Positions 25,302 through 58,204 of a stretch of 64,000 nt of DNA are shown here, piece after piece; positions within the stretch are counted from its first letter, which is position 1, and every line of letters begins with the position of its first letter. Source of the DNA: Salipiger pentaromativorans (GTDB lineage: Bacteria; Pseudomonadota; Alphaproteobacteria; Rhodobacterales; Rhodobacteraceae); contig NZ_JAMDHK010000018.1 of NCBI RefSeq assembly GCF_024721115.1, forward strand, positions 1 through 64,000, in the 5' to 3' direction. The position numbers and the translations under genes were made by a program. The notes under the pieces are model-generated. The model did not search any database. It worked only from the letters and a program-made list of their open reading frames with translations, and had not been told where the DNA came from.

Positions 25302-27269
25302 TTACGCTGTCTCCTGCTTGGCCGAGACCATCACCAAAGCGACAGCCACTGCCGCCATAGCGGCACCTGCGCCCACCGCGCCGAGGATCGGAACCGCCAG
25401 ACCCGCGTTCGAGGGAAAGGCGAAGGCCAGACCGGCAATACCAAGAAGGACGCGGGCGATTGTTCCTGGCAGTCCGGTTTCGATCCGCCCGACGCCAAAC
25501 AGATACCCCTGAATACCGGCGCAGATCAGCAGAATGCCGAGACCGGCGCGCAGAACCGTAAGCAGGCTTTCGAGTGGACCGGCTTGCAGGATGAACGCCG
25601 GATCAAGGACGAAGAAGAAGGGAATTATATAGACGATGCTTCCAAGCTTCATCGCTTCGAAGGCCGTCGCAAAGGGTTTGGCCTGGGCGATGGCCGCCGC
25701 GGCGAAAGCCGCGAGCGCGACGGGGGGGGTGATATAGCTCAGCATGCTCCAGTAAAGGATAAATAAATGGACGCCGATCGGATCGAGCCCGCCGGCGACC
25801 AGGGCGGGTGCCAGCGACACCGCCAGAATCACATAGGCGGCGGTCACGGTCATGCCCATTCCAAGAATGAAACTGGTCAAAGCCCCCAGCAGCAGAAGCA
25901 GAAAGATGTTGCCGCCCGCGATGAACAGCAGATCGTTCGAGATCGTCCCGGACATCCCGGTCACCGCCAGTCCGCCGACGATCAGCCCGACCGCCGCAAG
26001 AATGGCAACAAGTTCGACGAACAACTGTCCCGTGGCGATCAGAAAATTCATCAGCTCCTTTCGCCCCCAGCGTGATTTTGAGAGCAGCTGGTTCAGGACA
26101 AGAAGCAGCGCGGTCGCATAGAATGGAGCGATCGCCTCGCGCTTGAGGTAGAGCAACATCCAGATCAGCAGCCCGAAGACGGCGAGAAAGTACCAGCCTT
26201 CGCGCAGCACCTTGCCGATCCTGGGAAGGTCGGCGCGCGGAACGCCTTTCAGTCCGTTGCGCGCCGAGTATGCGTCGATTTGTGCGAACAGGCCGAAAAA
26301 GTAGAACAGCGAAGGAAGCACCGCCGCCACAACGATGTTGGTGTAGTCGGTCGCCAGGAATGTCGCCATGACAAAGGCCGTGGCGCCCATGATAGGGGGC
26401 ATCAGCACCGCCCCCGTCGACGCCGCCGCTTCGATCCCCGCCGCATAAGTGGGCCTGAACCCCACCTTTTTCATCGCTGGAATGGTAATTGATCCGGTCG
26501 TCAGCACATTGGTGATCACGCTGCCGCTCATCGAACCGGTCAGCCCGCTGGTCAGAACTCCTACCTTGGCCGGCCCGCCCCGGACATTTCCGAGCGCGGC
26601 AAAGGCGATGTCGATAAAAAACGGACCTGCGCCGGTATGTTGCATCGCAACGCCGAAGATCATGAACCCCACGACAAGATTGACAAAGCTGCGCATCGGT
26701 ATGCCCAGCACACTTTCGCCGCTCATCGCGTGGAAGATCGCCGTTTCGACGGGCGAGCGCTGGAAGCCCTGGATCGGGCCGGGCGCATAGTTGGCGATCA
26801 TGGGGTAGATGGAAAATACCAGGATTACCGCGAACAGCGTCCAGCCGCCGGTGCGGCGCGCGGCCACGAGCAGCAGGAACCAGAAGGCGAAGCTGGCGAT
26901 CACGGCATTAAGAGGAGCGGCGAAATCCCACCCTTTGTTCACCACGCTGCGCCCGTAGTAGGCAAAGAAGGCGCAGGTGATCAGGGCCAGCAGGGCCAGA
27001 AAGTAATCCCACCATCGCGTCGATCCGTAAGGATCTGACTTTGAACAGGGAAAGACAAGGAACACCAGTGGCAGCGTCAGCAGAAGCATCACGTAGAGGT
27101 AGTGAATTTCAAGCAACCGGACGTTCATGAAGAAGCCCAGATTGAACAGATGGTTGACCGACGCCGCGGTCAAAAGCAGCGCCGAGACGACGAGCGACCA
27201 GCGAACAAACGCGGGCAGGGTGCCCATACCGGTCGGTTGCGCCGGCGCTTCCTGTGTTTCCTGTGCCAT
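25302..27269 (-). CDS. TRAP transporter fused permease (4TM/12TM, TAXI-linked)
   Basis: This 655-residue membrane protein combines DctQ- and DctM-like parts with about 16-18 hydrophobic segments. It has the channel motif GLTGSMSGSVITNVLTTGS and AASTGAVLMPPIMGATAFVMA. The ATG at 27269 starts MAQETQEAP; the frame continues 43 residues upstream with no membrane or family signature. It works with the TAXI binding protein encoded 68 bp upstream. Neighbours suggest uptake of the acid processed by this operon. Confidence 0.92.
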   Translation of the reverse strand: MAQETQEAPAQPTGMGTLPAFVRWSLVVSALLLTAASVNHLFNLGFFMNVRLLEIHYLYVMLLLTLPLVFLVFPCSKSDPYGSTRWWDYFLALLALITCAFFAYYGRSVVNKGWDFAAPLNAVIASFAFWFLLLVAARRTGGWTLFAVILVFSIYPMIANYAPGPIQGFQRSPVETAIFHAMSGESVLGIPMRSFVNLVVGFMIFGVAMQHTGAGPFFIDIAFAALGNVRGGPAKVGVLTSGLTGSMSGSVITNVLTTGSITIPAMKKVGFRPTYAAGIEAAASTGAVLMPPIMGATAFVMATFLATDYTNIVVAAVLPSLFYFFGLFAQIDAYSARNGLKGVPRADLPRIGKVLREGWYFLAVFGLLIWMLLYLKREAIAPFYATALLLVLNQLLSKSRWGRKELMNFLIATGQLFVELVAILAAVGLIVGGLAVTGMSGTISNDLLFIAGGNIFLLLLLGALTSFILGMGMTVTAAYVILAVSLAPALVAGGLDPIGVHLFILYWSMLSYITPPVALAAFAAAAIAQAKPFATAFEAMKLGSIVYIIPFFFVLDPAFILQAGPLESLLTVLRAGLGILLICAGIQGYLFGVGRIETGLPGTIARVLLGIAGLAFAFPSNAGLAVPILGAVGAGAAMAAVAVALVMVSAKQETA

Positions 27270-27307
27270 GCCCGTATTCCAGTTTTGTGCTGCGTTGCTT
27301 TGTGCAA

Positions 27308-27324
27308 GGCGCCTGTGGGGCGCC
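27308..27324. other. Short intergenic hairpin before the fused permease
   Basis: GGCGCC repeats flank a 5-nt loop in the 68-bp gap between the TAXI binding protein and its permease. It may tune relative expression, but a 6-bp stem in GC-rich DNA is weak evidence. Confidence 0.25.
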
Positions 27325-27337
27325 GCGCTGTGTCGCA

Positions 27338-28483
27338 TCAGCGGAAAAAGACTTCGTGGCCGGCCGCTTCCAGTGCGTCGGCACGGGCTTTCATCCATGC
27401 AGCGGCAAATTCTTCTTCACCCTCTGGAGCGTCCCCGACAAATGTGCCCCAGGCCCGCAAGAGCACCTCTTGCCGTTCCACCAATTTGTCCTGGTTTGCC
27501 TGGGCTTCCGGTGTCCACAGACCCTTTTCCTTGAAGTAGGCAACGCTGCCATCGCTCCATGGCATCACCCAAGACAGGATCTGGCGATCAATCGCATACG
27601 CATTGGCACCGGGGGCGGCATCCTTGTAATCGTCGAACCCTGCGTCAAGCGCGGCTACGATGTTGCGCACCTCGGTGGAATCCTGATCGGAGTTAGTGAC
27701 CAGGATCGGATAGGGGTACTGCGCCATGGGCAGTGGGGAGGCAGGGTCGATGCCCGGCCCCACAGACACCATATGCGGTGTCACGAAGGGCGTTACGCTG
27801 GTGTAGCGTTCCCATGCTTCTGTCTGGTCCGCGGGTGTTTCAAGCCATTTCAGGCCGCGCGGGCTTGACTCGATCTGGTAGTTTACGGTGGTCGTCGTCA
27901 GTGCAAAGGCGGCATCCACACGGTCTTCGAGAATGCCCTGGAGCGTGTTCACATAGCCCGAGAATTCCACTGCCTCCACGTCGTCCCATGTCAGGTCCGC
28001 AAAGGCCAGCAGCCCCTCCATGTTGACATCGATCGCCGGCGAACTGACGGCGCGACCGACCCGTTTGCCCTTGAGGTCCGTAATCGTCTCGATGCCGGCA
28101 TCGGCCGCGACGGCGACACCCAGACCGTAGTCGCCGACAGCCTGAAGCACCGCGCGGATCGGCTGCGGGCCCCATTCAGGCGCAGCAAAAAGGAAAACCC
28201 CTTCGGCAGCGAAATAGGAGGCGATGCCGCACAGGCAATAATCGACCGTCCCGTTTTTGAGCGGCGTCATCCGCGAGACGTCGTTTCGCCCCGGAAGCAC
28301 GCGGACCGTCGATCCGTATTTGCTGCGCATCATGTTGCCGATGGCTATGGAATGCGCATGACCGGCCGATCCCGTGTCATAGGCCGACCAAGCGATCACG
28401 TCAGGCAGATCGATGTCTTGCGCGCCAGCCGAGGTGGCCATTGCCAGGCATGCGGCAGCGATCCCGGTTATCTTGAACTTCAT
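27338..28483 (-). CDS. TAXI-family TRAP solute-binding protein
   Basis: This 381-residue secreted protein has a signal peptide (residues 1-21, ending ATSAGA-QD) and TAXI-family features such as ITDLKGKRVGRA near the centre. TAXI proteins feed fused TRAP permeases. The ATG at 28483 has AAGGAGGAG just upstream; the longer frame is not a signal peptide. It lies between the ACAD pair and the permease. Confidence 0.92.
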   Translation of the reverse strand: MKFKITGIAAACLAMATSAGAQDIDLPDVIAWSAYDTGSAGHAHSIAIGNMMRSKYGSTVRVLPGRNDVSRMTPLKNGTVDYCLCGIASYFAAEGVFLFAAPEWGPQPIRAVLQAVGDYGLGVAVAADAGIETITDLKGKRVGRAVSSPAIDVNMEGLLAFADLTWDDVEAVEFSGYVNTLQGILEDRVDAAFALTTTTVNYQIESSPRGLKWLETPADQTEAWERYTSVTPFVTPHMVSVGPGIDPASPLPMAQYPYPILVTNSDQDSTEVRNIVAALDAGFDDYKDAAPGANAYAIDRQILSWVMPWSDGSVAYFKEKGLWTPEAQANQDKLVERQEVLLRAWGTFVGDAPEGEEEFAAAWMKARADALEAAGHEVFFR

Positions 28484-28532
28484 GATATTCTCCTCCTTGT
28501 TGGTCGTTGGTCCCGGGTGGCGCCCATTCAGA

Positions 28533-29759
28533 TCAAAGCTCTGAAAACGCGACATCCTTGTCGACGCGTATTTCAGGCGGCAGCCCGAGAATGCGTTCGC
28601 CAATGATCGTGCGCTGGATCTCGTCCGATCCCCCCGCGATCCGGTTGCCCGGCGCGGTCAGGTATTCGTTTCGCCAGCGCGCCACGTCATCCCCGACCTT
28701 GGCTGATATGCCCGCCGAAGTTCCCGCCAGATCCATCCCGAAAGCGCCCATTTCCTGCCGCAGCTTGCCCAGCAACAGCTTGCCGATCGAGCCCTCTTCA
28801 CCCGGTGCCTGGCCGCGCGAAAGCGACGTCATGACCCGGTAAGAGGTGAATTCCAGTCCGCGTTGACGCGCGATGAAATCGGCAATGCGCGCGCGCACCT
28901 CGTCGTCCTCGATGGCCGGGCGACCGTTCCGTTCGACACGGGTAGCCAGATCAATCAATTCCTCGGCCCGCGCACCGCCACTGGCCCGGCCGACGGAAAT
29001 ACTGAACCGTTCGTTCATGAGTGTGGTCAGCGCCACTTTCCACCCTTCGGATACACCGCCCAAGCGGGCGCTGTCTGGCACGCGCAGGTTGTCGATGAAC
29101 ACTTCGTTGAAACTGGAGCTGCCCGAAATCTGGCGAATAGGACGGGTTTCGATGGCCGGGTCGGACATGTCCACAAGGAACATGGTCATTCCCTTGTGCT
29201 TGGGCACCTGTGGATCGGTGCGCGCCAGCAGGATGCCGTGAGTGGAATAATGCGCCCCCGAGGTCCAAACCTTCTGACCGGAGATCACCCATTCGTCGTC
29301 TTCGCGGCGTGCACGGGTGCGGATACCGGCCAAATCGGACCCGGCGGCGGGTTCGGAAAAAAGTTGGCACCAGATGTCTTCGCCCGTGAGAGCCCGGGGC
29401 AGGAATCTTGTTTTCTGGTCTTCGGTGCCGTGGATCATGACCGTAGGCCCGACCAGCCCGATCCCGATCAGAAAGACGTTGGGCGGGACGGCGTAGCGCC
29501 CTTCCTCTTGATTCCAGATCACTTGCTCGATCGGAGTGGCGTCACGCCCACCGAAAGCACGGGGCCATGTCAGCCCCGCCCAGCCTGCGTCGGCCTTTCG
29601 TGCCTGCCAGTCGCGCGCACGGGCAACTTCGTCGGCGTCGCGGGCCATGAAATGGTCCTGGGCCTTTTCGCTTCCATTGCGGCGGGTCGCGGTGGCATCA
29701 AGCCAGTCGCGCGCCTTGGCGCGGAACGCGGCTTCTTCCGGGCTGTCGCTGAAATCCAT
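28533..29759 (-). CDS. Acyl-CoA dehydrogenase, alpha-like catalytic subunit of a pair
   Basis: This 408-residue ACAD has FSEPAAGSDLAG, GQKVWTSGAHYSTHG and the C-terminal GNRIAGGSDEIQRTIIG. The probable base is E250 (MNERFSIS). It is slightly long, with an extra N-terminal segment as in heteromeric FadE-type subunits. A GTG at 29765 two codons upstream is a possible start; the ATG at 29759 has better spacing from AAGGA. Its partner lies 16 bp upstream. Confidence 0.91.
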   Translation of the reverse strand: MDFSDSPEEAAFRAKARDWLDATATRRNGSEKAQDHFMARDADEVARARDWQARKADAGWAGLTWPRAFGGRDATPIEQVIWNQEEGRYAVPPNVFLIGIGLVGPTVMIHGTEDQKTRFLPRALTGEDIWCQLFSEPAAGSDLAGIRTRARREDDEWVISGQKVWTSGAHYSTHGILLARTDPQVPKHKGMTMFLVDMSDPAIETRPIRQISGSSSFNEVFIDNLRVPDSARLGGVSEGWKVALTTLMNERFSISVGRASGGARAEELIDLATRVERNGRPAIEDDEVRARIADFIARQRGLEFTSYRVMTSLSRGQAPGEEGSIGKLLLGKLRQEMGAFGMDLAGTSAGISAKVGDDVARWRNEYLTAPGNRIAGGSDEIQRTIIGERILGLPPEIRVDKDVAFSEL

Positions 29760-29775
29760 CTGCACTTTGTCCTTG

Positions 29776-30888
29776 TCAGTTCGCGGCCCTTTGGCCGTCC
29801 GCCAGATTGCAAAGCAGCCGCTCGCGCCACAAATCGGCCAGGCCGAGTTCGGCCTTCAACTGCCATCCTCGCCGCAGAAACAAATGCGGGTCGGCCGCCC
29901 AGGTGAACCCGATCCCACCGTGAAGCTGCACCGATTCCTCAGTGGTGAATTGCACTGCATCGAGAGCCGCGAGGCGTGCTACCGCCGCCGCTTCGGACAG
30001 CCGTTCATCCCCGCTCGCCAGCGCCCAGGCGCCGAAAAAAGCATTGGACCGTGCCAGCTCGATCTTGGCGAACATGTCCGCGAGCCGGTGCTTGACCGCC
30101 TGAAAACTGCCGATCTGGCGTCCGAACGCCTGCCGCTCGCAGGCATAGTCTCTGGTCAGGAAAAGCGCCCGCTCGGCCAGGCCGATCTGTTCGAAGGCGG
30201 CCAACACTGCGGCGCCGTCCAGAAGAGTCCGGATCGCTGCGGGATCGGACCCGGGAAGCAGTTCAACCGGCGTGTCGTGAAAGACGATCTCGGACGTCGG
30301 ACGGGTGCGGTCGATCGCATCCAGCGCGCTGATCGACACCGAGGGGTCCGAAAGATCCGCCAGATAAAGGCGCGCGGTGCCGCCTTCGTCCAGGGCGGCG
30401 ACGATCGCGAATGACGCATCGGATGCGAACGAAACTGGCGATTTCCGTCCCGAAAGGCGATCCTGCAGCACTTTTGCCGAGACCCGTTCCGGTGCAGACC
30501 CTCCATCCTCGGCAAGCGCGACGGTAACGATCATGCGGCCTTCGGCGATCCGGGGAAGCAGATTTTCCCTTTGGCTTTGCGTGCCCAAGTCCTGAATCGC
30601 GGGGATCGCCAGGCCAAGAACCGGGCCAAAAGGTATGGCGGCCAGGCTACGGCCGATCTCTTCGGCGACAATGGCCAGTTCGATCGCCCCCATCGCCGCC
30701 CCCCCGTAGTCTTCGGCAATTGCAAGGCCCAGCCATCCGCCGTCCGCCAAGGCGGTCCAGGTTGCGGAATCGAACCCGTCGGCAGCCTCAAGACAGTCAT
30801 GCGCCACCGCGAGAGTGGCGTGATCGCTCAGCATTCGTGCCAGCGTGTCGCGTATGGCATCGTGTTCGTCGGAAAAGCCGAAATTCAT
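29776..30888 (-). CDS. Acyl-CoA dehydrogenase, beta-like subunit of a pair
   Basis: This 370-residue ACAD has EDYGGAAMG, CERQAFGRQIGSFQAVKH and VQLHGGIGFTWAADPH. It lacks the C-terminal GGS/TNEI motif and has a relaxed SEPGAGS region (LAEDGGSAPE), features of the non-catalytic partner of alpha2beta2 ACADs. It heads the 22511-30888 operon. A motif B palindrome lies 102 bp upstream of its start. Confidence 0.88.
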   Translation of the reverse strand: MNFGFSDEHDAIRDTLARMLSDHATLAVAHDCLEAADGFDSATWTALADGGWLGLAIAEDYGGAAMGAIELAIVAEEIGRSLAAIPFGPVLGLAIPAIQDLGTQSQRENLLPRIAEGRMIVTVALAEDGGSAPERVSAKVLQDRLSGRKSPVSFASDASFAIVAALDEGGTARLYLADLSDPSVSISALDAIDRTRPTSEIVFHDTPVELLPGSDPAAIRTLLDGAAVLAAFEQIGLAERALFLTRDYACERQAFGRQIGSFQAVKHRLADMFAKIELARSNAFFGAWALASGDERLSEAAAVARLAALDAVQFTTEESVQLHGGIGFTWAADPHLFLRRGWQLKAELGLADLWRERLLCNLADGQRAAN

Positions 30889-30989: not shown

Positions 30990-30999
30990 CACATATGTG
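30990..30999. promoter_or_regulatory. Motif B operator (exact CACATATGTG)
   Basis: This exact 10-bp palindrome lies 102 bp upstream of the ACAD operon start (30888, minus) and 210 bp upstream of the hot-dog gene at 31209. Exact copies also lie at 36291 and 38197, and a one-mismatch copy at 57041, each 73-102 bp upstream of an operon. Confidence 0.75.
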
Positions 31000-31719: not shown

Positions 31720-32544
31720 ATGACTATGAAAACCGCGCAATCTGGCCCAGCCGAAGCCGCCGGGCGCACATCGGAAGGGCCCCGGTCCTTGACGCGTATC
31801 CTTGCGTTGTTCGATCTTTTGGCGCGCTGCAAACGTCACATGTCTCTTTCGGAACTCAGCATCGCGATTGATTGCCCCAAGAGCAGTTTGCTGGTGCTGC
31901 TTCGGCCCCTCACCGAGAAGGGGTATCTGATGCGCGAGGAAGACAATTACTTTCTGGGTCCGAGGATTTTTCAGTTCGCCCAGTCAATTCTGACCAACCA
32001 CCCGTTCGAATCGGTCCTGCGCGGGGTGATGAATGATGTGGTTAACCAGACCGGTGAAACCATCCTGTTTGCTGTCCGGGACGGCGAGAAAGTCATTTAT
32101 TCGTCGGTCATCGAAAGCCCCCAGCCCGTTCGGTATGTCGCCCAACAGGGGATCAACCGGCCATTGTTCTGTTCGGCATCGGGGCTGGTCATGCTGGCCT
32201 TTGACACGCAGCAGGAACTGGACGATTATTTTCGGCGCACTGAATTAAAGCCGCTGACGCCTAATTCGATCACCGATGAAAATGAACTGCGCGGGTTAAT
32301 TTCGGAGATTCGCAAAACCGGGTATTCCAGTACAGCTGGAACCGCGCATGTAGATGCAGCGGGGTTCGGGGTTCCGGTCTTTCGCGCCGACGGACACTTG
32401 GCAGGAGCATTGGTGATTGGTGCTCCTCTGGAGCGCGCCAAGCGTAACAAGAAGCGATATGTTGCCGCTGCCAAAACGGCCGCTGAACAGCTCTCCCGAG
32501 CACTCGGCTATCGTTCGGAGGTTGGGGAAACCGGCCGGCACTAG
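31720..32544 (+). CDS. IclR-family transcriptional regulator
   Basis: This 274-residue protein has an N-terminal winged helix-turn-helix (about 20-85; MSLSELSIAIDCPKSS, then a wing with NYFLGPRIFQFAQS) and a C-terminal IclR effector domain with HVDAAGFGVPVFRADG. It probably senses a pathway acid or CoA ester. A second ATG at 31726 has better spacing from GGAG. It is adjacent to the motif B cluster and is the natural candidate to bind it. Confidence 0.93.
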   Translation: MTMKTAQSGPAEAAGRTSEGPRSLTRILALFDLLARCKRHMSLSELSIAIDCPKSSLLVLLRPLTEKGYLMREEDNYFLGPRIFQFAQSILTNHPFESVLRGVMNDVVNQTGETILFAVRDGEKVIYSSVIESPQPVRYVAQQGINRPLFCSASGLVMLAFDTQQELDDYFRRTELKPLTPNSITDENELRGLISEIRKTGYSSTAGTAHVDAAGFGVPVFRADGHLAGALVIGAPLERAKRNKKRYVAAAKTAAEQLSRALGYRSEVGETGRH

Positions 32545-32584: not shown

Positions 32585-33733
32585 TCATCTCAGTCCGAGT
32601 CCCCGCGCAATGATACCGCGAAGAATTTCGCGTGTGCCGCCGCGCAACGAAAACGACGGAACGGCGAGTTCGGTATACGCCAGAACAGCCGCATAGCTAT
32701 CGCTCCCGCCAGGCACCGCCGGGCGCGACACAAGACTTCGGGCCAGGCGCGGAATGTCCTGTTCGAAAAGCGCTCCCAGATCCTTGACAATGGCAGCCTG
32801 AAGTGACGGGTTCTCTCCTTCGTTCAACATTCCGGCCACCGATCGTGACATCTGCCGCAGCACCATCAGATGCGCGGACAAACGGCCAATCTCGGCCTGC
32901 TGCGCTTCGGTTGCGTCGTCGCGCAGCAATCGGATCAGTTCCTCGATCAGGGCAAACGACGACAGGAACCGCTCGGGGCCGCTGCGCTCGAACGCCAGTT
33001 CGCTCATGACCTGCGACCAGCCCTCGCCCTTTTCGCCCAGCAGCGCATCGGAGGGCAAAAAGGTATCGTCGAATACCACCTGGTTGAAATGATGCTCACC
33101 GCCCAAGTCGATGATCGGGGTGATCTGAATGTTGTCGGTGGCCTTGAGATCGACCAGAAATTGGCTCATCCCGCCGTGGCGGTCGTCGCTCTTGCCGGTG
33201 CGGCAGAACAGGATCATGTAATCGGCGACATGCGCATAGGTCGTCCAGACCTTCGTGCCGTTGATCCGGAACCCCCCGTCGACCTCGGTGGCCATCGTGC
33301 GCGTCGCCGCCAGGTCCGAGCCGGAATCCGGCTCGCTCATCCCGATGCAGAAACACAGTTCGCCCGCGGCGATGCGCGGCACGATCCGGCGTTTCTGATC
33401 GTCGGTGCCCTTGGCAAGTATGAGCGGACCGCTCTGCCGATCTGCGATCCAGTGCGAAATCACCGGGGCACCGGCGGCCAGTAGCTCTTCGGACACGACA
33501 TACCGCTCAAGCGCGCTGCGCGCGTGGCCGCCGTATTCCTTTGGGAAGGTCATGCCGACCCAGCCGCGCTGCGCCAGCTTTCGTGAAAAATCACGGCTGA
33601 ACCCATTCCACGACTGCGCGCGTTTTATGGGCGGGAAATCGGCCAGTTCGTCGGCCAGGAACGCGCGGACCTCTTGCCGGAGGTCGTCATAGTCGGCGCC
33701 GGGCGGGGGGGGAGAAAAAGCGGTGAGGGTCAT
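32585..33733 (-). CDS. Acyl-CoA dehydrogenase, alpha-like subunit of a pair
   Basis: This 382-residue ACAD has FPKEYGGHA, MSEPDSGSDLAATR near 132-145, GTKVWTTYAHVADY and the C-terminal LRGGTREILRGIIARG. The candidate base is E249 (AFERSG), with E254 just after it. Its ATG overlaps the stop of the partner ACAD (ATGA). It is last in the minus-strand MmgE-ACAD-ACAD operon. Confidence 0.9.
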   Translation of the reverse strand: MTLTAFSPPPPGADYDDLRQEVRAFLADELADFPPIKRAQSWNGFSRDFSRKLAQRGWVGMTFPKEYGGHARSALERYVVSEELLAAGAPVISHWIADRQSGPLILAKGTDDQKRRIVPRIAAGELCFCIGMSEPDSGSDLAATRTMATEVDGGFRINGTKVWTTYAHVADYMILFCRTGKSDDRHGGMSQFLVDLKATDNIQITPIIDLGGEHHFNQVVFDDTFLPSDALLGEKGEGWSQVMSELAFERSGPERFLSSFALIEELIRLLRDDATEAQQAEIGRLSAHLMVLRQMSRSVAGMLNEGENPSLQAAIVKDLGALFEQDIPRLARSLVSRPAVPGGSDSYAAVLAYTELAVPSFSLRGGTREILRGIIARGLGLR

Positions 33734-34788
33734 GCCTGGGTCCCTTTTGCAGCGCTGTCTGTGATGAAATGCCAGAAGGTGTCGTGGGGGCTCGACAGGG
33801 CGGCCCGCCCAAGTTCCCTGGTCCAGTCAAGCTCGGTGCCGAACTCGTCACGCCAGCCCCAAATCCGTTTGGTGAAATGGTGAAGCGCGTGTTCCTGGGT
33901 ATAACCGATGGCCCCGTGAATCTGGTGGGCCAGGGCCCCGACCTTCTCGGCCGCTTCTCCGGCGCGGGCCTTGGCGGCGGCAACGGCCAGCGCAAAGGCC
34001 GGTGTGTCATAGCTGCCGGCCGCCATCTCGGCGGCCGTGCGCGAGGCTGCGGTTTCTCCGGCCATTGTCGCAAGATTGTGCTGGATCGCCTGGAACCTGC
34101 CGATTGGCCGTCCGAACTGCACCCGGTCGTTGGCGTATTGAACGCTCATCTTCAGGATGGTCTCCATCGCCCCGGTGGTGGCAAGACTGCGGATAAGTGC
34201 ACCAAGCCCGCGCATCCCTCCCACGGGTCGTGGCAAGGGGGTGACATCGGTCTCTGTCAGGGTATAATCGAGTTCGATGTCGTCGCGTGGCATCCCGGCA
34301 AAATCCTGCGCCGGGTCAACGATCAGATCCTTCACCGGCAGGGACAGGACGTGATCGACACCGTCCAGGACGCCAATGGTCACGATCCGGTTCGCCCAGC
34401 GGGCAAAGGGCACCAGTGTCAGATGCCCGCTCGCATGGATCTTCTTGCCGCGCCGTTCCAACCGCAGCGCTTCGCCTTCGGCGATGGTCAGCCTGCCACC
34501 GGGAAGGGCCATATTCGCGGCCGCCAGAACGGCGTTTGCGATCAGGGTTTCAGCCAGAGGCAAGGGCAGGCCATGCGCCCCGACAATACGCACAAGACCG
34601 AGCGCCTCGGCCGGTGGCACGCCGAAACCGCCTGCGTCCTCTGGCACCAGCGCCATGGTTAACCCTGCCTCCTCGATCTGCGTCCAGAGCGCCTCGGGGC
34701 ATTGTCCCGAGGCGGCGTCTTCGCGCATGCGGTGGGTGACATGGTCGCGGAACAGTCGCTCTGCCATGTCATGAATCATCGATTCCAT
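33730..34788 (-). CDS. Acyl-CoA dehydrogenase, beta-like subunit of a pair
   Basis: This short 352-residue ACAD has VPEDAGGFG, DRVQFGRPIGRFQAIQH and IHGAIGYTQEH. The middle beta-domain is shortened and there is no C-terminal GGT motif, as in the smaller partner of heteromeric ACADs. Its start overlaps the MmgE/PrpD stop (TGATG), and its own stop overlaps the next start, so the three genes are translationally coupled. Confidence 0.88.
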   Translation of the reverse strand: MESMIHDMAERLFRDHVTHRMREDAASGQCPEALWTQIEEAGLTMALVPEDAGGFGVPPAEALGLVRIVGAHGLPLPLAETLIANAVLAAANMALPGGRLTIAEGEALRLERRGKKIHASGHLTLVPFARWANRIVTIGVLDGVDHVLSLPVKDLIVDPAQDFAGMPRDDIELDYTLTETDVTPLPRPVGGMRGLGALIRSLATTGAMETILKMSVQYANDRVQFGRPIGRFQAIQHNLATMAGETAASRTAAEMAAGSYDTPAFALAVAAAKARAGEAAEKVGALAHQIHGAIGYTQEHALHHFTKRIWGWRDEFGTELDWTRELGRAALSSPHDTFWHFITDSAAKGTQA

Positions 34789-36218
34789 CAGACGGTCCTT
34801 TCAGACGGTGTTTGATCGGCGCTGGACATTTCCTTCACGGGCTTGTCCTGCCGCGCATGGTTTTTTTGCCCGTCGGGGGCCGACGCCTCTCGCAGTGGCG
34901 GCAGATGCAGCCGCGTGCGCAGATCCCGGCGGAACGCACTGGCAGAGGGCGCCGCGCCCCCGTCCCTGCGATATTTTCCGAGGCAATCGGCGATTTTGTC
35001 GCCGATCGCGGCAGGGGTTGCCGGATCCGAGGGAGAGCCGGGGTGCGCCGCGACCGAGGTTTCGGCCAGGGTTACGTTCCCTTTGCGCAGGCGGACATGG
35101 ACCGTCCCATGGTCCACGCCAGCGTGATCCCGCCCCGCTTCCGGCATGGTTTGGATATGCACCATGTCCATAAGCCGGCGCACCGCGGGGCGATGGGGGC
35201 TGTCCCCTTCGAAATCCACCAGCCCGACCTGGCCCTGCTGCAGGGCCACGGCGAGCGTATAGGCGGCACAGAACTTGGCCTGCATTCCATCTTTGGGGTC
35301 GGTGACATGCAACGGGACCATGACGCTTTCGGGCACTGTCATTTCAATCACCGATCCTTCGGGCACCGCCTCGCCGCCGCGTTCGGCGTGAAGGTGCCGC
35401 CCGGCGGCGATCATCCTGTGGGTGAGGTAGCAGCAGGGATACAGCTTGCGGGACACCGTGCCCAGATCGATCCGCGGTTCCACCGCTGCGGGGTCGGCCG
35501 CAATCCCGTCCGGGCCGGCATAAAGGTCGAAGAAGCCGCGCGCCGCGAAGATGTCCGGGGCGCCCGTGATGCCGGCCTCGGCCATCCGGGTGGCCCGCAA
35601 TCCGACAAGGGCGGCGTTTCCGGCCTGGATCGGTTTCGCCATGGCGCCGAAATTGATCTGCATTCCCCCGGCCAGCGACGCGGCCAGGGACAGGGCGTTG
35701 CGGACTGCGTCGTCGTCGAGCCCAAGCTGATGCGCGACCGCTGCCGCCGATGCCAGAACCCCGATGGTCGACGTTGCGTGCCAGCCCTTGTTGTAGTGGC
35801 CAAAACCCAGGATCTGACCGAGCGCGACATTGACGGCTGTTCCGACCGCAAGCGCGGGGGCAATGCGGCCGGCCGTGTCCGGCCGGACATCCACGGTGGC
35901 CAGCAGCGCCGACACGATTACAACACTGGGATGGGTGACGCTGACCGTATGGACATCGTCGAAATCGAGCGCATGACCGGCAACCGCGTTCAGGAACGCG
36001 GCCTGTTCGGGACTGCCACCTTCAGCAGCTCCTGCCGGGACTGCCGGTCCGCCCGCGTCAAGCGCCGCCAGCCGGCGAACCACCGGTTCATGCCACCCGC
36101 CATAGATGGCGGCTATGGTATCCTCAACGCAAAGCGCGGCCTGCTCGGCGTCTGCAACGCTCAGCCGGTGCGGCGCGGCGACGAACCGCGACAAACGGAT
36201 GGTGAAATCGCTGATCAT
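34788..36218 (-). CDS. MmgE/PrpD-family dehydratase/isomerase-like protein
   Basis: This 476-residue protein is an MmgE/PrpD homologue, with early motifs VEDTIAAIYGG and HALDFDDVHTVSVTHPS and a later YPCCYLTHRMIAA. Family members include 2-methylcitrate dehydratase and iminodisuccinate epimerase, all acting on branched or cyclic polyacids. The start at 36218 fits family N-termini, but an ATG at 36242 behind GAGG is possible. It is first in an operon with the ACAD pair and has motif B 73 bp upstream. Confidence 0.88.
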   Translation of the reverse strand: MISDFTIRLSRFVAAPHRLSVADAEQAALCVEDTIAAIYGGWHEPVVRRLAALDAGGPAVPAGAAEGGSPEQAAFLNAVAGHALDFDDVHTVSVTHPSVVIVSALLATVDVRPDTAGRIAPALAVGTAVNVALGQILGFGHYNKGWHATSTIGVLASAAAVAHQLGLDDDAVRNALSLAASLAGGMQINFGAMAKPIQAGNAALVGLRATRMAEAGITGAPDIFAARGFFDLYAGPDGIAADPAAVEPRIDLGTVSRKLYPCCYLTHRMIAAGRHLHAERGGEAVPEGSVIEMTVPESVMVPLHVTDPKDGMQAKFCAAYTLAVALQQGQVGLVDFEGDSPHRPAVRRLMDMVHIQTMPEAGRDHAGVDHGTVHVRLRKGNVTLAETSVAAHPGSPSDPATPAAIGDKIADCLGKYRRDGGAAPSASAFRRDLRTRLHLPPLREASAPDGQKNHARQDKPVKEMSSADQTPSERTV

Positions 36219-36727
36219 CCACTTCTTTCTCTGACACTGCATATTGCCTCATCAAGGCGGGCGCTATCAACTCTCGGCCCCACTCTTTCGCACATATGTG
36301 TTGGAGCGGGATGCTTGCGTTGTGATCCTTGCTGCCGTTGGATATTCTGGGTGCTCATCCTTCCTCTGTTTCCGTGCAGGATCGGGCGTTGGACGTGACC
36401 GTAGAACTTCGGAAAGAAGAACAGACGTGGTTGAGGGTATCGGCGTGAAAAGTCGGGCAGACAAGCACGCATGTGCGGAGAGACATTTCGAGGCATCGTT
36501 GTGTCATTGACCGCCAGACGATGTATCCTCGGAGGCCCGGAACCAAGGCGGTCAGTGCCACCACAAATCCGGGCTAGTCCGCCCTGCGCCGACAAGATGA
36601 GCACCTTGTGTGTCCTTGCCTGTGAATGGGAAATTGTCGGCATCGCATTTCCGCCGTCGTGCCATGAAAGACCGCATCTGCCGTTGCGTCACAGACACAA
36701 CGAGCGCCTTCGGAAAAGGGGGGGCAG
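36219..36727. other. Long divergent intergenic region
   Basis: These 509 bp separate the MmgE operon from the membrane-protein gene. The motif B palindrome at 36291 is the only clear element. Several short open frames occur on both strands, but none resembles a known protein or has a convincing ribosome site. Confidence 0.55.
36291..36300. promoter_or_regulatory. Motif B operator (exact CACATATGTG)
   Basis: This exact palindrome with flank TTTCG on the left lies 73 bp upstream of the MmgE/PrpD start. The TTCG or TTCC flank is shared with the copies at 38197 and 57041. Confidence 0.75.
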
Positions 36728-38196: not shown

Positions 38197-38206
38197 CACA
38201 TATGTG
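38197..38206. promoter_or_regulatory. Motif B operator (exact CACATATGTG)
   Basis: This exact palindrome lies in ATTTCCACATATGTGTTCGA, whose flanks extend the symmetry. It ends 81 bp upstream of the CoA-transferase/TRAP operon start. Confidence 0.75.
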
Positions 38207-38286: not shown

Positions 38287-39240
38287 GTGGCACGCCCAAC
38301 GATGGAAGGCCAAGCGAAACCCACACGTCGCAGCAAGGTCACAGGCCTGCAAGACGCAGCCCGGCTGGCACGAGGCGCTTTGGAAGAACGCCCCGAGCTT
38401 TGTCTCGGTGGTCTGTTCAAGCAAAGCCGCCCTGTCGCACTGGTGCGCGCGTTGCTGGCCGCGGGCGCAGATGGTCTGCATGTGTATTCCTCGCCGGGCG
38501 CGGGGTATGATGTCGACCTGATGATTGCGGCAGGCGCGGTCGCACAGGTCTTTATTCCCGGCGTTACGCTGGAAAACCGGCTTTGCCCCAATTTCCGCCG
38601 CGCGGTCGAGGCAGGGCAGGTGACCGCGCACGCGCTGGATGCGCTGACCGTGGTGGGCGGGCTGATGGCGTCGGCTCATGGCGTGCCGTTCCAGCCAATC
38701 GACGCGCTGCGCGGATCGGACGTTCTGAAGCACAACCCGCTTTTGCACGAAATCGACTGCCCGTTCTCCGGCCGCCGTATTCACGCCGTCGGGCCGATCC
38801 GCCCCAGAGTGACGTTCTTGCACGCGCAGGAAGCCGACCGTTGGGGAAACCTGCGCCATCTCAGCACGATGGTCTACGCCGATCAGCTGATGGCACGCGC
38901 GTCTGACATGGTCATTGCCAGCGTGGACCGGATCGTGCCGGACGAGGTCGTTCTGGACGATCCCTCGCGGGTTACCGTGCCGTCTTATTATGTCGATGCC
39001 GTGGTCGAGGTGCCCTATGGCGCGCACCCAACCGCGAGCTTTCCCAACTATGCGATGGACGAGGACCATATCGACGCCTACGCCGATCTGGGGGATGCCG
39101 CCCGGACCGGCGACAGCACGGGGCTGGACACCTATATCGCCCGCCATGTGACCGGACCGAAAAACCAGAGCGACTACATCGAAGCGGTCGGGGGAGCCGG
39201 GTATTTCGCCGTGCTCGAAGCCGAGGCACGGAACGAATGA
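38287..39240 (+). CDS. Class I CoA-transferase subunit A (glutaconate CoA-transferase/IpdA-like)
   Basis: This 317-residue protein matches the alpha subunit of family I CoA-transferases: GGLFKQSRPVALVRALLAAG near 40-60 and a GAGYDVDLMIAAGAV segment. IpdAB of steroid-ring degradation, which opens a ring CoA ester by hydrolysis, belongs to the same fold, so a transferase or a hydrolase role is possible. The start is uncertain: GTG 38287 has no clear ribosome site, and ATG 38302 lies 14 bp after GGAG. It overlaps subunit B (ATGA). Confidence 0.88.
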   Translation: MARPTMEGQAKPTRRSKVTGLQDAARLARGALEERPELCLGGLFKQSRPVALVRALLAAGADGLHVYSSPGAGYDVDLMIAAGAVAQVFIPGVTLENRLCPNFRRAVEAGQVTAHALDALTVVGGLMASAHGVPFQPIDALRGSDVLKHNPLLHEIDCPFSGRRIHAVGPIRPRVTFLHAQEADRWGNLRHLSTMVYADQLMARASDMVIASVDRIVPDEVVLDDPSRVTVPSYYVDAVVEVPYGAHPTASFPNYAMDEDHIDAYADLGDAARTGDSTGLDTYIARHVTGPKNQSDYIEAVGGAGYFAVLEAEARNE

Positions 39241-40004
39241 GTGCAGCGGTTTCCCCAATTGAACAGATGGTCGTCGTGTTGGCCCGCGATCTGGCCGACG
39301 GAGAACTGGGTGCGGCGGGTGCAGCCGCGTTGGTGCCGATGGCGGCCATTGCGCTAGCCCGCGAGCTGCATGCACCGAACCTGACGGTCGGCGGCGAGAT
39401 GTTCTTCAACCCCGAGCCGGGGCGTTTGTATCCGTCGATGCTGGACGATCGTGCGCTCGGCCGCTGCGAGGCCGCCGAGACCTTTATCGAGTTGTTCGGC
39501 CACAGCCATCACGGGCTGGATTTTTTCTTTCACAGTGGCTTGCAGCACGATGTGTACGGCAACATCAACCTGCACCACGTCGGCGGCACGCTGCACGCAC
39601 CAAAGATGCGCGGGCCGGGGGCAGCAAACCTGTCATACTGCCACACCTCGTCGCGGTATTACATTTGCCCCACCGTGCATACGGCGCGAAACTTTGTGGA
39701 AACGGTCGATTTCATCACAATACCCGGACATCTGTCCGGGCCTGCCGCGAAACGCGACGCCGGGCTGGTCAATGAAGGACCGCGCCTGGTGGTGACACCG
39801 CGAGCGGTTATGGATTTCGACAAGACGACGCTGCGAATGCGACTGAAATCGGTGCATGCGGGAAATACGCCCGAAGAGGTCCAGCGTCATACGGGGTTCG
39901 ATCTGGCGATCAGAGGCGAGGTGCCGCAAACGCGGCCACCAACGGAGGAAGAATTGCGCGTTCTGAGAGAGCGGATCGATACATCGGGGGCCCTGCGTGC
40001 TTAA
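39237..40004 (+). CDS. Class I CoA-transferase subunit B (glutaconate CoA-transferase/IpdB-like)
   Basis: This 255-residue protein is the partner beta subunit. NLTVGGEMFFN near 43-53 holds the Glu at the position usually carrying the family nucleophile, and later segments include DVYGNINLHHVGG and KMRGPGAANLSYCHTS. Its start overlaps the alpha subunit's stop. A TAXI TRAP system follows 45 bp downstream, suggesting that the imported acid is the CoA acceptor or that a ring ester is opened. Confidence 0.88.
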   Translation: MSAAVSPIEQMVVVLARDLADGELGAAGAAALVPMAAIALARELHAPNLTVGGEMFFNPEPGRLYPSMLDDRALGRCEAAETFIELFGHSHHGLDFFFHSGLQHDVYGNINLHHVGGTLHAPKMRGPGAANLSYCHTSSRYYICPTVHTARNFVETVDFITIPGHLSGPAAKRDAGLVNEGPRLVVTPRAVMDFDKTTLRMRLKSVHAGNTPEEVQRHTGFDLAIRGEVPQTRPPTEEELRVLRERIDTSGALRA

Positions 40005-40049: not shown

Positions 40050-41021
40050 ATGATCCAACGCAAGTTGACCGGATACCGGGCGGCGGTGGGTGCTATCGCG
40101 GCCATGGGCGCGATAGCCCTTGGCGGCGCGGCATCTGCCAAGGATCTCACGATGGGCACGACCAGCCCGACGTCGAGCCATTTCACCATTTCGGTTGCGA
40201 TGAGCAAGGCGATCGAGACCGGCATGGAAGGCACCAATGTCAGCGTGATCGAAACCGGGGCCAGCGTGGACAATGTGCTGCGGCTGGCGCGCGACGAGAT
40301 CGACCTTGGGCTTGCCACCACCGACATTCTGATCTCCGCCAGAAACGGGACCGGCAAGTTCGAAGGTAACGCAATCCCAGATACGGTTGCGCTTTATCCT
40401 TACAGCGCCTCGATCCTGCTGATCGCGGTCACCGAAGAGTCTGGTGTGACGACGCTGGACGAACTGGACGGAAAGAAGTTCAATCCCGGCATCCGCGGAT
40501 CGGCGGCCGAGACGTTGACGACCGGTGTCCTGTCCATGTTCGATATCAACGCGGACCTGGTGCATGGCGCCGTTGGCGACGCGGTGGAAGGCATCAAGAA
40601 CCGCCAGATCATCGGTTATAGCAAATACGGGGCCGCAAACTCTGTCGATGCAACCCTGCAAGAGTTGATGACAAGCACCAAGATGCGGTTGATCGGCTTC
40701 ACCGAAGAGCAGGAGAAAGCGGCGACAGAAGCCATGGAGGGCGTCGGTTTCACGACTCTTCCCGCAGGGCTTATTCCGGGATCCGAGGAAATGCGGGTAC
40801 CCAAGCTCAACGTCTTCTTCCTGACCCGCACCGGCGTCATGGATGACCAGAGCGCCTATGACATCGCTCGCAGCATCCACCAGAACATGGACCTGCTGGT
40901 CGAAGCCTGGCCGCAGCTTGCGGATTACGACATCGCCGCCGATGCCGTCGCCACAATCGAGACCGGTATACCCTATCATCCAGGTGCGGAACGTTACTGG
41001 AGAGAGGCGGCCGGAAGCTGA
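40050..41021 (+). CDS. TAXI-family TRAP solute-binding protein
   Basis: This 323-residue secreted protein has a signal peptide (about residues 1-30, ending ASA-KD) and the TAXI pattern LTMGTTSPTSSHF, then LARDEIDLGLATTD. Its sequence differs strongly from the TAXI protein at 27338, so the two likely bind different ligands. GGGAGG precedes the ATG. The gene is in an operon with CoA-transferase AB and the fused permease. Confidence 0.9.
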   Translation: MIQRKLTGYRAAVGAIAAMGAIALGGAASAKDLTMGTTSPTSSHFTISVAMSKAIETGMEGTNVSVIETGASVDNVLRLARDEIDLGLATTDILISARNGTGKFEGNAIPDTVALYPYSASILLIAVTEESGVTTLDELDGKKFNPGIRGSAAETLTTGVLSMFDINADLVHGAVGDAVEGIKNRQIIGYSKYGAANSVDATLQELMTSTKMRLIGFTEEQEKAATEAMEGVGFTTLPAGLIPGSEEMRVPKLNVFFLTRTGVMDDQSAYDIARSIHQNMDLLVEAWPQLADYDIAADAVATIETGIPYHPGAERYWREAAGS

Positions 41022-41066
41022 CCGGAATCGCGGGCCGTCACGACGGCGGCCATAGGCTGATCCAGA

Positions 41067-41087
41067 CGGGGTGCTGCGGGCACCCCG
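41067..41087. other. Intergenic hairpin between TAXI protein and permease
   Basis: CGGGGTGC and GCACCCCG (8 bp) flank a 5-nt loop in the 89-bp gap. No T-run follows. It may set a higher level of the binding protein than of the permease. Confidence 0.4.
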
Positions 41088-41110
41088 CCGTTACCGCTCT
41101 CGGAGAGAAC

Positions 41111-43054
41111 ATGACGCAGACATCGACCGCAATACCCAATTGGGAACGGCGCGGAGGGCAGGCGCTTGGAGTATTGTTGGCGGCATTCGTCGCTCTGCAT
41201 TTCTACAATGCCTTATTCGGGCAGTTCGAACCGCTGGTTCAGCGGCCGATCTTTATCGGTTTCGGTATCGGCGGCGCGTTCTTTCTTTATGCGGCACGCG
41301 CCTCGCGGACCGGTGCGCGAAGCGGGATTGAACGGGCTGTGGACATCATGCTGGGACTACTGGCGTTCGCGGTTTGCCTCTACGTGATCCTGAACCGGGA
41401 TCGCTTTTCGGATATCATGGTGCGCTATGGGCCGATCGACAAGGCGGCAGGTCTGATAGCTGTTCTGCTGACCCTCGAGGCCGCGCGCCGGGTGATCGGA
41501 TGGTTCCTGCCGCTGCTGGCCCTTTGCACCGTGATCTATTTCTATTTCGGCTATGACCTGATCGACGGCGCCTGGCGCCCGCCGCGCGTTTCGGCACGTA
41601 CCGCTGTCGAGACATTTTACAGCTCGACCACCGGCCTGTTCGGCTACCTTGCGGATATCGGGGCACGGGTCATCGTGATCTATGTGCTTCTGGGGGCGCT
41701 CCTGCTGTCGACCGGGGCAACGGATGCTTTCATGAAAATGGCAACGTGGATCGCCGGTCGAACGTATGGCGGCCCGGCAAAGGTCTGTGCCCTGTCTTCG
41801 GCGATGTTCGGGACGGTGACCGGTTCGGCAGTGGCCAACGTCATGGCGACCGGCTCGATCACCATTCCCACGATGAAGCGGCTGCGCTATCCACCGGCCT
41901 TTGCCGGGGCGGTCGAGGCCGTTGCCTCCTCCGCCGGCCAGCTTACGCCGCCGGTGATGGGGGCAGCGGCCTTCATCATGGCTGAGTTCCTGAACATTCC
42001 CTATACCGACATTGTCGTTGCGGCGATCGGTCCGGCATTTCTCTACTACCTGGCGGTATGGCTCGGGGTGGATCTCTATGCGCGTCGCACAGGGTTGCAA
42101 CCGACACCGAGGAGCGAAATGCCCGAACCGGCGGAATTCCTCGCACCGGACAAGTCAATTCCCTTGTTTCTTCCCATCGCGGCGATGGTCTACTTCCTGT
42201 TCAACGGCTACACGCCGAGCTTTGCAGGTGCCGGTGCTGTTATCATACTGGTTTTGGCCTGTGTGGTGGTGCGCCCGTTCGCGCGTGACGGAAGAGAGCA
42301 GGGCGTGCTGGCCTCTTGGGCCAAGCTGGCGCGCGACCTCTATGAGGGGATGATCGAAGCAGGGCGGGCGTTGGTGATGATCGCCGCGCTGCTAGCCTGC
42401 GCCGCCATCGTCGTCAAGGTTCTGACGGCGACGGGTGCCGGGGTCAAAGTCTCGAACCTGTTGTTCTCTGTGTCCGGTCAGGGGTTGATCGTGGCCCTGT
42501 TGCTGGCGGCGGTGCTGGCGATCTTGCTGGGTATGGACGTGCCGACGACGGCCTCCTATGTGCTGGCGGCGGCAATCGCCGCGCCCAGTCTCGTGCGGCT
42601 TGGCCTACCCGAACTGACGGCTCATCTTTTTGTCTTCTACTATGCGATCCTGTCGGCCATCACGCCACCGGTCTGCGCCAGTGTCTATGCCGCCGCCGCC
42701 CTGGCAGGGGCCAATTTCTGGCGGGTGGCGGGTCGCGCGCTGATGTTGGCCGGAGCGATCTATGTGGTGCCGTTTCTCTTTGTGTTCCGGCCGGGCATAC
42801 TGGCCCAGGGCGGCACGGTGCAAATCCTACTGGATATGGGCGTGGCCTGCGCCGCGGTTTTTGCCGTCAGCGTCGGCACAAGCGGCTGGTTTCGTGGAAA
42901 GGTGCCGGTCATCGGCCGGTTGCTGTTCCTGTCGGCTGCCGGCTTGCTGTTTTACGCCGCGCCTGCGGCCGACATCGTTGGTGGGCTGGCGCTGGCCGGG
43001 CTCTTGGCGTGGCGGTTTTTGCGCGGAGCACCGCAGCCCGGCCGCGCCGGGTGA
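41111..43054 (+). CDS. TRAP transporter fused permease (4TM/12TM)
   Basis: This 647-residue membrane protein has the fused DctQ-DctM layout, with the channel motif SSAMFGTVTGSAVANVMATG and SSAGQLTPPVMGAAAFIMAE. It pairs with the TAXI protein immediately upstream. A convergent terminator follows its stop. Confidence 0.92.
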   Translation: MTQTSTAIPNWERRGGQALGVLLAAFVALHFYNALFGQFEPLVQRPIFIGFGIGGAFFLYAARASRTGARSGIERAVDIMLGLLAFAVCLYVILNRDRFSDIMVRYGPIDKAAGLIAVLLTLEAARRVIGWFLPLLALCTVIYFYFGYDLIDGAWRPPRVSARTAVETFYSSTTGLFGYLADIGARVIVIYVLLGALLLSTGATDAFMKMATWIAGRTYGGPAKVCALSSAMFGTVTGSAVANVMATGSITIPTMKRLRYPPAFAGAVEAVASSAGQLTPPVMGAAAFIMAEFLNIPYTDIVVAAIGPAFLYYLAVWLGVDLYARRTGLQPTPRSEMPEPAEFLAPDKSIPLFLPIAAMVYFLFNGYTPSFAGAGAVIILVLACVVVRPFARDGREQGVLASWAKLARDLYEGMIEAGRALVMIAALLACAAIVVKVLTATGAGVKVSNLLFSVSGQGLIVALLLAAVLAILLGMDVPTTASYVLAAAIAAPSLVRLGLPELTAHLFVFYYAILSAITPPVCASVYAAAALAGANFWRVAGRALMLAGAIYVVPFLFVFRPGILAQGGTVQILLDMGVACAAVFAVSVGTSGWFRGKVPVIGRLLFLSAAGLLFYAAPAADIVGGLALAGLLAWRFLRGAPQPGRAG

Positions 43055-53268: not shown

Positions 53269-53303
53269 ATTTACAAGCGCGGCCATCCTTCCGTATGGAA
53301 CGC

Positions 53304-53321
53304 TGTGCATATAACTGCACA
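53304..53321. promoter_or_regulatory. 18-bp inverted repeat upstream of the IclR gene
   Basis: TGTGCA and TGCACA flank a 6-bp AT-rich centre, 15 bp before the ATG of the IclR gene. It could be an autoregulatory site. Confidence 0.4.
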
Positions 53322-53336
53322 CGAAGGGAGGAGATC

Positions 53337-54140
53337 ATGGAAACCGCGCATCAGACTTCAGCAAGAACAGGCGGCGATCAAATTGTGAAATCGGTGGCGC
53401 GCACCTGTCAGACTTTGGTGTATTTCGATGAAGTTCAGCGACCGCTTTCGGTCGTGGAAGTGTCCAAGGAACTGGGGTACCCGCAGTCAAGTACCTCGGC
53501 GCTGCTCAAAAGCTTGGTGAAGCTTGGATTTCTGACCCACGATGCCCGAAAGAAGAGTTATTTTCCCACCGAGCGCGTTCCGCTTTTAGGGTCGTGGATG
53601 AATCCAGATCTGTTCGGCGAAGGCACCATCCACCGGCTGCTCAAGGCAATTTCGGAACGCACACGGCATGTGGTGGTTCTGGCAACCAAGAATGGGGACG
53701 AAGCCGAGTACGTGCAAGTTGTCCGCCCGAAAGATTCGCCGATCCACCACATATCGCTCGGGACACGTCGTCCGCTGGGTAACTCAGGTGTCGGGCGCGT
53801 TCTGATGAGTCGTTTCAGTGACGACGAAGTGCGCAGTCTGTTCCGCAGGATCAACGCCTATCGCGCGCCCGACAAACCGGCAGTGGATGTGAAAGCTTTC
53901 GTGGCCTCGTTGGCAGAAACCCGTGCCAAGGGCTATTACCTCTCAACCGATCAGGTGGTTCAAGGGAGCGGCTTGATTTCCATGCCGTTTCCTAACCATC
54001 TGAACTCGCGGCTTTTCGCTGTCGGGGTTGGCGCTCCAACTGATGTTATCTTGAGATCCGAAAAAGAGATCGTAGGGATCATGCACGAAGAAATCGTTCG
54101 AAATCTGAAGAAGATGGGTCAACAGTCCCTGACCGCCTGA
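53337..54140 (+). CDS. IclR-family transcriptional regulator
   Basis: This 267-residue protein has a winged helix-turn-helix (about 15-80; LSVVEVSKELGYPQSSTSAL, wing KKSYFPTERVPLLG) and an IclR effector domain with TSAG-like IHHISLGTRRPLGNSGVG. GGGAGGAG precedes the ATG at 53337, so the longer frame from 53295 is not used. The gene follows a motif A copy and an 18-bp inverted repeat, so self-regulation is likely. Confidence 0.93.
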   Translation: METAHQTSARTGGDQIVKSVARTCQTLVYFDEVQRPLSVVEVSKELGYPQSSTSALLKSLVKLGFLTHDARKKSYFPTERVPLLGSWMNPDLFGEGTIHRLLKAISERTRHVVVLATKNGDEAEYVQVVRPKDSPIHHISLGTRRPLGNSGVGRVLMSRFSDDEVRSLFRRINAYRAPDKPAVDVKAFVASLAETRAKGYYLSTDQVVQGSGLISMPFPNHLNSRLFAVGVGAPTDVILRSEKEIVGIMHEEIVRNLKKMGQQSLTA

Positions 54141-57050: not shown

Positions 57051-57149
57051 TGATCTCGCGACAGTTGCGCTCCCGGCCACCCATAAACATTGACCGGTTC
57101 ACCGCACCATGGTGCGCTGATCGACAACGCCACAGGGAGGAAGACTGCC

Positions 57150-58193: not shown

Positions 58194-58204
58194 GGCGCGC
58201 AACC

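Follow-up and report, generated by a model that had tools for sequence, protein, structure and literature searches.

The palindrome CACATATGTG is predicted, with good confidence, to form the operator core of the IclR-type regulator encoded at positions 53295 to 54140 (IclR B), and not of the IclR-type regulator encoded at position 31720 (IclR A). All positions refer to the window, i.e., the entire stretch of 64,000 nucleotides of Salipiger pentaromativorans DNA that was analyzed. An IclR B dimer would switch four operons for TRAP-type uptake and CoA-dependent catabolism together. Specifically, the dimer would occupy the palindrome at one site ahead of each of the four operons, an effector (the substrate or an acyl-CoA intermediate) would bind to its C-terminal domain, and effector binding would switch the operons jointly. 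In this way, the response to a pathway compound would couple uptake by three TRAP systems with the CoA-dependent breakdown of an organic acid. Judged by comparative genomics, the conserved operator and the regulon are well supported, and the regulator should probably be reassigned from IclR A to IclR B. A previously uncharacterized catabolic block thus gains a proposed regulator, an operator, and a list of targets, and the proposed regulon makes the substrate of the block testable by reporter assay. More generally, the nearest regulator gene need not encode the reader of a site, and where a cluster contains two IclR genes, only loci holding one of them tell the readers apart.

The features of the window are compiled in Table 1. 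TRAP transporters were assigned to the TAXI type by NCBIfam and the other gene families by Pfam; the latter also revealed thiolases, MaoC hydratases, CoA-ligase-type proteins, and an IS66 transposase. IclR B possesses both the N-terminal IclR helix-turn-helix (PF09339, 39 bits versus a cutoff of 22) and the C-terminal IclR effector domain (PF01614, 62.6 bits versus a cutoff of 24); its start is annotated in relatives as the ATG at 53337. The two-subunit CoA-transferase matches the solved structures 6co6/6con, which we take to be IpdAB, as well as glutaconate CoA-transferase. Because of these matches and the IpdE2-like first dehydrogenase, the substrate is likely a cyclic or dicarboxylic acid. 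The block probably serves the uptake and breakdown of an organic acid in marine bacteria. The minus-strand open reading frame at 48601 to 49587 is probably spurious, as annotated relatives have a CoA transferase on the opposite strand (48643 to 49857, plus).

Table 1. Coordinates of predicted operators, regulators, and target operons in the window
Feature	Position	Strand	Remarks
Operator 1, CACATATGTG	30990..30999		upstream of minus-strand ACAD/ACAD/TAXI-TRAP operon (29776-30888 and on)
Operator 2, CACATATGTG	36291..36300		upstream of minus-strand MmgE/ACAD/ACAD operon
Operator 3, CACATATGTG	38197..38206		upstream of plus-strand CoA-transferase/TAXI-TRAP operon
Operator 4, CATATATGTG (one mismatch)	57041..57050		upstream of DctPQM
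Acyl-CoA dehydrogenase, first gene of operon 1	29776..30888	-	IpdE2-like, far below curated cutoff
Acyl-CoA dehydrogenase, operon 1	28533..29765	-	
TAXI-type TRAP transporter, operon 1	25302..28603	-	solute-binding protein 27338-28603 and fused permease 25302-27398
MmgE/PrpD-family protein, first gene of operon 2	34788..36242	-	
Two acyl-CoA dehydrogenases, operon 2	32585..34788	-	
Two-subunit CoA-transferase (IpdAB/glutaconate CoA-transferase-like), operon 3	38287..40004	+	PDB matches
Second TAXI TRAP transporter, operon 3	40050..43054	+	
DctP, DctQ, DctM TRAP transporter, operon 4	57090..60066	+	
IclR A, candidate regulator of the initial annotation	31720..32544	+	
IclR B, proposed regulator	53295..54140	+	ORF start 53295; Pfam HTH_IclR, IclR_C

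The three exact copies described in the initial annotation (30990, 36291, and 38197) and the one-mismatch copy at 57041 were all recovered, together with a fourth exact copy at 5956 within a MaoC-like coding sequence, which had been overlooked. The copy at 57041 reads CATATATGTG, a single mismatch to CACATATGTG breaking the symmetry at one base. If up to two mismatches are allowed, the window contains 30 copies versus 14.19 ± 3.95 after shuffling, and none of 100 shuffles reached 30. The initial annotation had also suggested a scan of the genome (5,576,178 bases in seven contigs); it returned four exact copies, all within the window and none elsewhere, and the pattern read backwards, used as a control, had no exact copy across the genome. 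With at most one mismatch, 40 places were found genome-wide versus 13 for the backward control. One-mismatch copies (36 in the genome, 33 of these outside the window) are in general not specific; the variant CATATATGTG/CACATATATG occurs among them only at 57041. By hand estimate, about three copies of such a 10-mer are expected in a genome of 5.6 Mb, so that four copies by themselves are unremarkable and might be ascribed to chance or composition. However, all four lie within 32 kb, for which a probability of about 8e-7 was calculated analytically for random positions (0 of 2 million simulations), the sites are conserved against a diverged background as described below, and the backward control is zero. 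We consider the probability that the pattern is a chance or compositional artifact to be negligible; chance clustering of the exact copies was rejected on the basis of the genome scan and the P value. An operator common to the four operons is well supported, both by the lack of stray exact copies in the genome and by conservation in relatives.

The spacing between site and start codon, initially described as uniform, is similar for the four operons but not uniform, with values between about 50 and 102 bp according to which start is taken. It amounts to 102 bp for the site at 30990 (site start to ATG 30888), 73 bp to ATG 36218 or 49 bp to ATG 36242 for that at 36291, 81 bp for that at 38197 (site end to GTG 38287), and 100 bp for that at 57041 (site end to ATG 57150).

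The comparison of orthologous promoters, also proposed in the initial annotation, bore out the conservation of sites 1 to 3, and site 4 is kept in Roseovarius indicus. The alignments comprised the window and the loci G044, G189, G354, G355, L023, L024, L062, L063, L064, and L019, some of which are close relatives (e.g., G044/L062 and L063/L064), so that the number of independent lineages is smaller than the number of rows. Site 1 is exact in 10 of the 11 aligned rows, G044 having CACATACGTG, and its first six bases belong to AAACCACATA, the longest run without variation. All eight rows of the alignment for site 2 are identical at this site, with GCACATATGTG as the longest run; G189, in which no MmgE gene was found, and L063 and L064, which had no usable region, were left out of this alignment, yet the site 2 motif is present in these three clusters as well, and in G189 it persists ahead of the next dehydrogenase gene. 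Site 3 shows no variation among the 11 rows and lies inside an 18-bp invariant run, CACATATGTGTTCGATCA, the only run of six or more. In all three promoter alignments (8 or 11 rows), the longest stretch of invariant positions thus falls within the motif or shares bases with it. For site 4, R. indicus has GCATATATGTG at the same place, upstream of a DctP gene whose product shares 82% identity. According to whole-genome counts, the exact motif is found solely on the contig of the cluster in the genome of the window, G044, and G153 (four, three, and three copies, respectively), whereas exact copies elsewhere were counted in G354 and G355 (one each, on another contig), in G189 (two on other contigs, plus one about 70 kb from the IclR A gene), and in G061, the most distant carrier (three on other contigs); G262, of the same genus and without IclR A, has one exact copy. 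Confinement of the motif to the cluster is hence clear in some carriers and incomplete in others.

At E ≤ 1e-50, IclR A was detected in 7 of 394 genomes of the family (including the genome of the window), and the same seven carry IclR B among 388. Since the two regulators are inseparable in close relatives, distant loci with just one of them were compared, "A-only" and "B-only" applying to the retrieved region of about 20 kb, with other replicons of plasmid hosts outside the search. The A-only set comprised 18 loci (5 plasmids plus 13 loci; 339,279 bp). The B-only set comprised 36 loci (8 plasmids, 21 loci, and 9 loci, less two repeated strains; 700,584 bp), L129 and L133 being omitted as the same strains as L100 and L098, respectively. 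Seven of nine distant plasmid records for IclR A were taken (two Achromobacter records were left out) and 10 of 10 for IclR B, two of which (L065 and L068) hold both regulators. Apart from those of the window's own genome, the genome matches were taken completely (13 for IclR A, 21 and a further 9 for IclR B), several of them ending early at contig ends. For deduplication, a further nine B and four A loci judged by us to be near-duplicates were removed, leaving 27 B and 14 A loci.

The results argue against IclR A, which had been put forward as the candidate binder. The 36 B-only loci contain 14 exact copies in 10 loci, compared to 0.21 expected; after deduplication, nine copies in 7 of 27 loci remain versus 0.16 expected (P 1.8e-13), and one-mismatch copies number 22 versus 6.2 expected. 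CACATATGTG ranks first among the 1,024 palindromic 10-mers at B-only loci. In contrast, there was no exact copy in the 18 A-only loci (0.18 expected) and none in the 14 deduplicated ones (0.13 expected), where one-mismatch copies were at chance level (4 versus 4.5). When loci instead of sites are counted, the contrast is weaker (7 of 27 B versus 0 of 14 A; Fisher P 0.04), so that the weight of the comparison rests on the site counts. The strain of one motif-positive B-only locus, L099, has a cluster with both regulators on another plasmid; the B excess persists without this locus (8 versus 0.15 expected) and with whole-genome loci alone (7 versus 0.11 expected). Samples of the class with nine other A genomes (E ≤ 1e-38) and 15 other B genomes (E ≤ 1e-30) did not overlap. 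A search for IclR A in seven motif-positive B genomes gave nothing in two and remote IclR matches in five (27 to 31% identity, best E 1.4e-28). The three distant loci with both proteins, L047, L065, and L068 (A, 39 to 45%; B, 46 to 58% identity), all carry the motif.

A role of IclR A (31720 to 32544, between sites 1 and 2) in binding CACATATGTG is suggested by the vicinity of its gene to site 1, its presence in every examined cluster having the three sites, and its family, whose members bind palindromes of this general type according to the accessible text of PMC8222616. Nevertheless, this assignment appears unlikely, as the motif is lacking at the A-only loci and occurs where IclR B is present without IclR A nearby, and the recognition helices of the two proteins differ (PKSSLLVLL in A versus PQSSTSALL in B); IclR A as the reader of the motif was rejected on the basis of the A-only loci. 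A further alternative is that both IclR proteins use the sites, either competing or as mixed oligomers, the operons reading two signals. Co-occurrence of the two in the same seven family genomes and in L047, L065, and L068 would suit this idea, which we nonetheless rate as very unlikely, because B-only loci carry the motif without IclR A and nothing links IclR A to the motif independently of IclR B. Moreover, mixed IclR oligomers would be unusual. The preferred reader thus remains IclR B alone.

Phylogenetic analysis of 43 B and 7 A rows, the latter representing 7 of the 18 A-only loci, resulted in separate clades with a support of 100/100. The eight-row clade around IclR B of the window is motif-positive throughout, and motif-positive rows are also located on deep B branches (17 rows; 8 changes versus 14.4 with shuffled labels, 0 of 500 as low). 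Alanine at position 69 tends to accompany the motif, being present in 16 of 21 motif-positive and 5 of 19 motif-negative B rows; in this comparison, one of the 21 rows (L049) is an A protein, orthologous near-copies were counted separately, and L062 and L063 had no row. An exact site is located directly ahead of the gene for IclR B itself in L099 and L145, and a site with one mismatch in L141, L171, and L173; in Rhizobium gallicum, a 20-bp palindrome precedes the gene of the B homologue. In the window, there is no motif site ahead of the IclR B gene. When the search was restricted to 400 bp upstream of the regulator genes, the motif came in 15th place, with exact copies in 2 of the 36 B loci; the dyads ranking above it came mostly from orthologous triplets.

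The possibility has to be weighed that another regulator traveling with IclR B reads the palindrome and that neither IclR protein binds. Association is not binding, and a LysR gene is present beside the IclR B gene in Variovorax. However, the B-only loci were gathered by searching for IclR B, several sites immediately precede the IclR B gene itself, and the core and the tandem spacing described below fit the IclR type; we regard this alternative as highly improbable and retain IclR B as the putative binder.

Some further palindromes were encountered. Three motif-negative B relatives (L098, L134, and L135) share the palindrome TCATATATGA upstream of the IclR B gene, possibly a variant operator. 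Gapped dyads as an operator of IclR A itself gave no candidate, the top dyads occurring in just 2 of 18 regions. At A-only loci, TATTCGAATA was found three times, twice with identical flanks in loci belonging to a single genus, and is a lead at most. A largely conserved near-palindrome (ATTCATCAAGAAT, positions 31040 to 31052) lies in the region separating site 1 from the MaoC and IclR A genes; its counterpart in G044 and L062 is the perfect palindrome ATTCATCATGAAT. It is a possible operator of IclR A or another factor; near-palindromes of this quality are common by chance, 78 of 100 shuffles having one.

The core CACATATGTG fits the published operator type of IclR group 1, at the level of sequence comparison. 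For this group, the accessible text of Suvorova and Gelfand 2021 (PMC8222616) gives the consensus GKTYCRYW3-4RYGRAMC and lists four subgroups, three with W3 and a fourth with CRAW4TYG; it also describes tandem sites 18 to 22 nt apart, i.e., about two helical turns, bound by a tetramer, as common, not universal. Nineteen sites near distant IclR B genes (nine exact and ten with one mismatch) favor the consensus TTCACATATGTGAA, which reads as TYCRY-W4-RYGRA. Because these sites were chosen by position, the core of the matrix derived from them is biased and just the flanks are informative; at each of two flanking positions, T is found in 22 of 38 half-sites and is hence favored, not fixed. A further likeness is that the targets named in the accessible text of PMC8222616 include CoA-transferase and DctPQM genes, whereas a W4 center flanked by CAC/GTG is found in none of the four subgroups listed there. 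The orthologous group of IclR B may already be contained in the supplementary tables of that paper.

Within the window, the palindromic core CRY-W4-RYG is found at 5956, 30990, 36291, and 38197. The outer arms TY...RA are matched on one arm at most at 30990, 36291, and 38197, and these three intergenic exact sites are without the TT/AA flanks of the distant consensus. When the window was ranked with the matrix, 5956, 38197, 30990, and 36291 took the first to fourth places; 57041 came seventh and was outranked by the site at 47272, within a coding sequence, and that at 14169. The window sites are single and have no tandem partner. Pairs at 21 bp exist in L099 (one exact, one mismatched), L145 (both exact), and L171 (both mismatched), and pairs at 42 bp in L128, L131, and L132, whose IclR B proteins are nearly identical. 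These distances agree with the published tandem spacing of IclR sites, and the 21-bp pairs near some B relatives fit binding by a dimer of dimers.

With respect to the sign of regulation, we lean slightly toward activation, because the distance to the start codon is about 80 to 102 bp for three of the four sites. Autorepression, on the other hand, would be in keeping with several B relatives, where a site is found within about 60 bp of the start of the IclR B gene itself. Promoter scans detected no promoter at any of the four sites, but as just 0.1 was expected per region, they carry little information on the sign.

IclR proteins switching catabolic operons are known from aromatic catabolism (PcaR, PcaU, and PobR), and the best solved relative of IclR B is a "Pca regulon" regulator, 8eju, albeit remote (61 bits). 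The half-sites of these regulators differ in being of the GTNCG type, and the target operons in the window differ in carrying TRAP transporters and acyl-CoA dehydrogenases. PheR, an IclR repressor of phenanthrene uptake and catabolism in Sphingobium, resembles the proposed role of IclR B in that one IclR protein controls uptake and catabolism together, whereas its essential determinant is GCAACG and not CACATATGTG, according to the accessible part of PMC13273656. Among the literature matches listed for CACATATGTG, judged by title and the start of the abstract, none concerned a bacterial operator, and our literature search found no paper linking this 10-mer with IclR. The combination of TTCACATA and IclR gave an unrelated match only. 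For IclR with TRAP or Rhodobacterales, PMC5343134 alone was retrieved, with HmgR as the only IclR protein in the accessible part of that paper.

A wider reading, to which we assign somewhat less than an even chance, is that an IclR subfamily in Alpha- and Betaproteobacteria keeps the nearly fixed core CACATATGTG across proteins of 30 to 40% identity and that, on roseobacter plasmids, it would constitute a self-contained regulon moving between genera together with its regulator; in the genome of the window, exact operators are confined to the mobile block. An intragenic operator (5956) and a second, separately acting IclR protein (A) may also belong to the regulon. Regarding mobility, IclR A is 99 to 100% identical in eight full-length loci from seven roseobacter genera (L015 to L022; 13 loci were returned) and 86 to 88% identical in three further loci of these 13. 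It is also 99 to 100% identical on plasmids H1 to H3 of Sulfitobacter alexandrii, Paracoccus, and Marinovum, the last two of which are typed as conjugative. Such near-identity across loci and plasmids points to recent horizontal transfer. In the window, an IS66 transposase gene (54472 to 56028) is located between the genes for IclR B and DctPQM. The same place is occupied by IS66 in Paracoccus p1 and by a transposase of unnamed type in Marinovum pMaD1, and none is annotated there in R. indicus.

The copy of CACATATGTG at 5956 to 5965, within the codons CAC ATA TGT G.. of the MaoC-like coding sequence, is a possible intragenic operator. It is exact in the orthologues of G354, G044, and S. pontiacus, all four distinct orthologues being identical here, and it includes an ATA codon, at the sole ATA position that the four have in common. 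Against the matrix of distant sites, no other place in the window scores higher. Plain codon conservation could also explain it, because three runs of invariant codons are longer than its own run of five, four others are equally long, and half of the degenerate codons are invariant. Two one-mismatch copies, CACAAATGTG at 47272 to 47281 and GACATATGTG at 47341 to 47350, lie 69 bp apart inside the CoA-ligase coding sequence, and CACAAATGTG is present at the corresponding place in L062, L063, L064, and L179.
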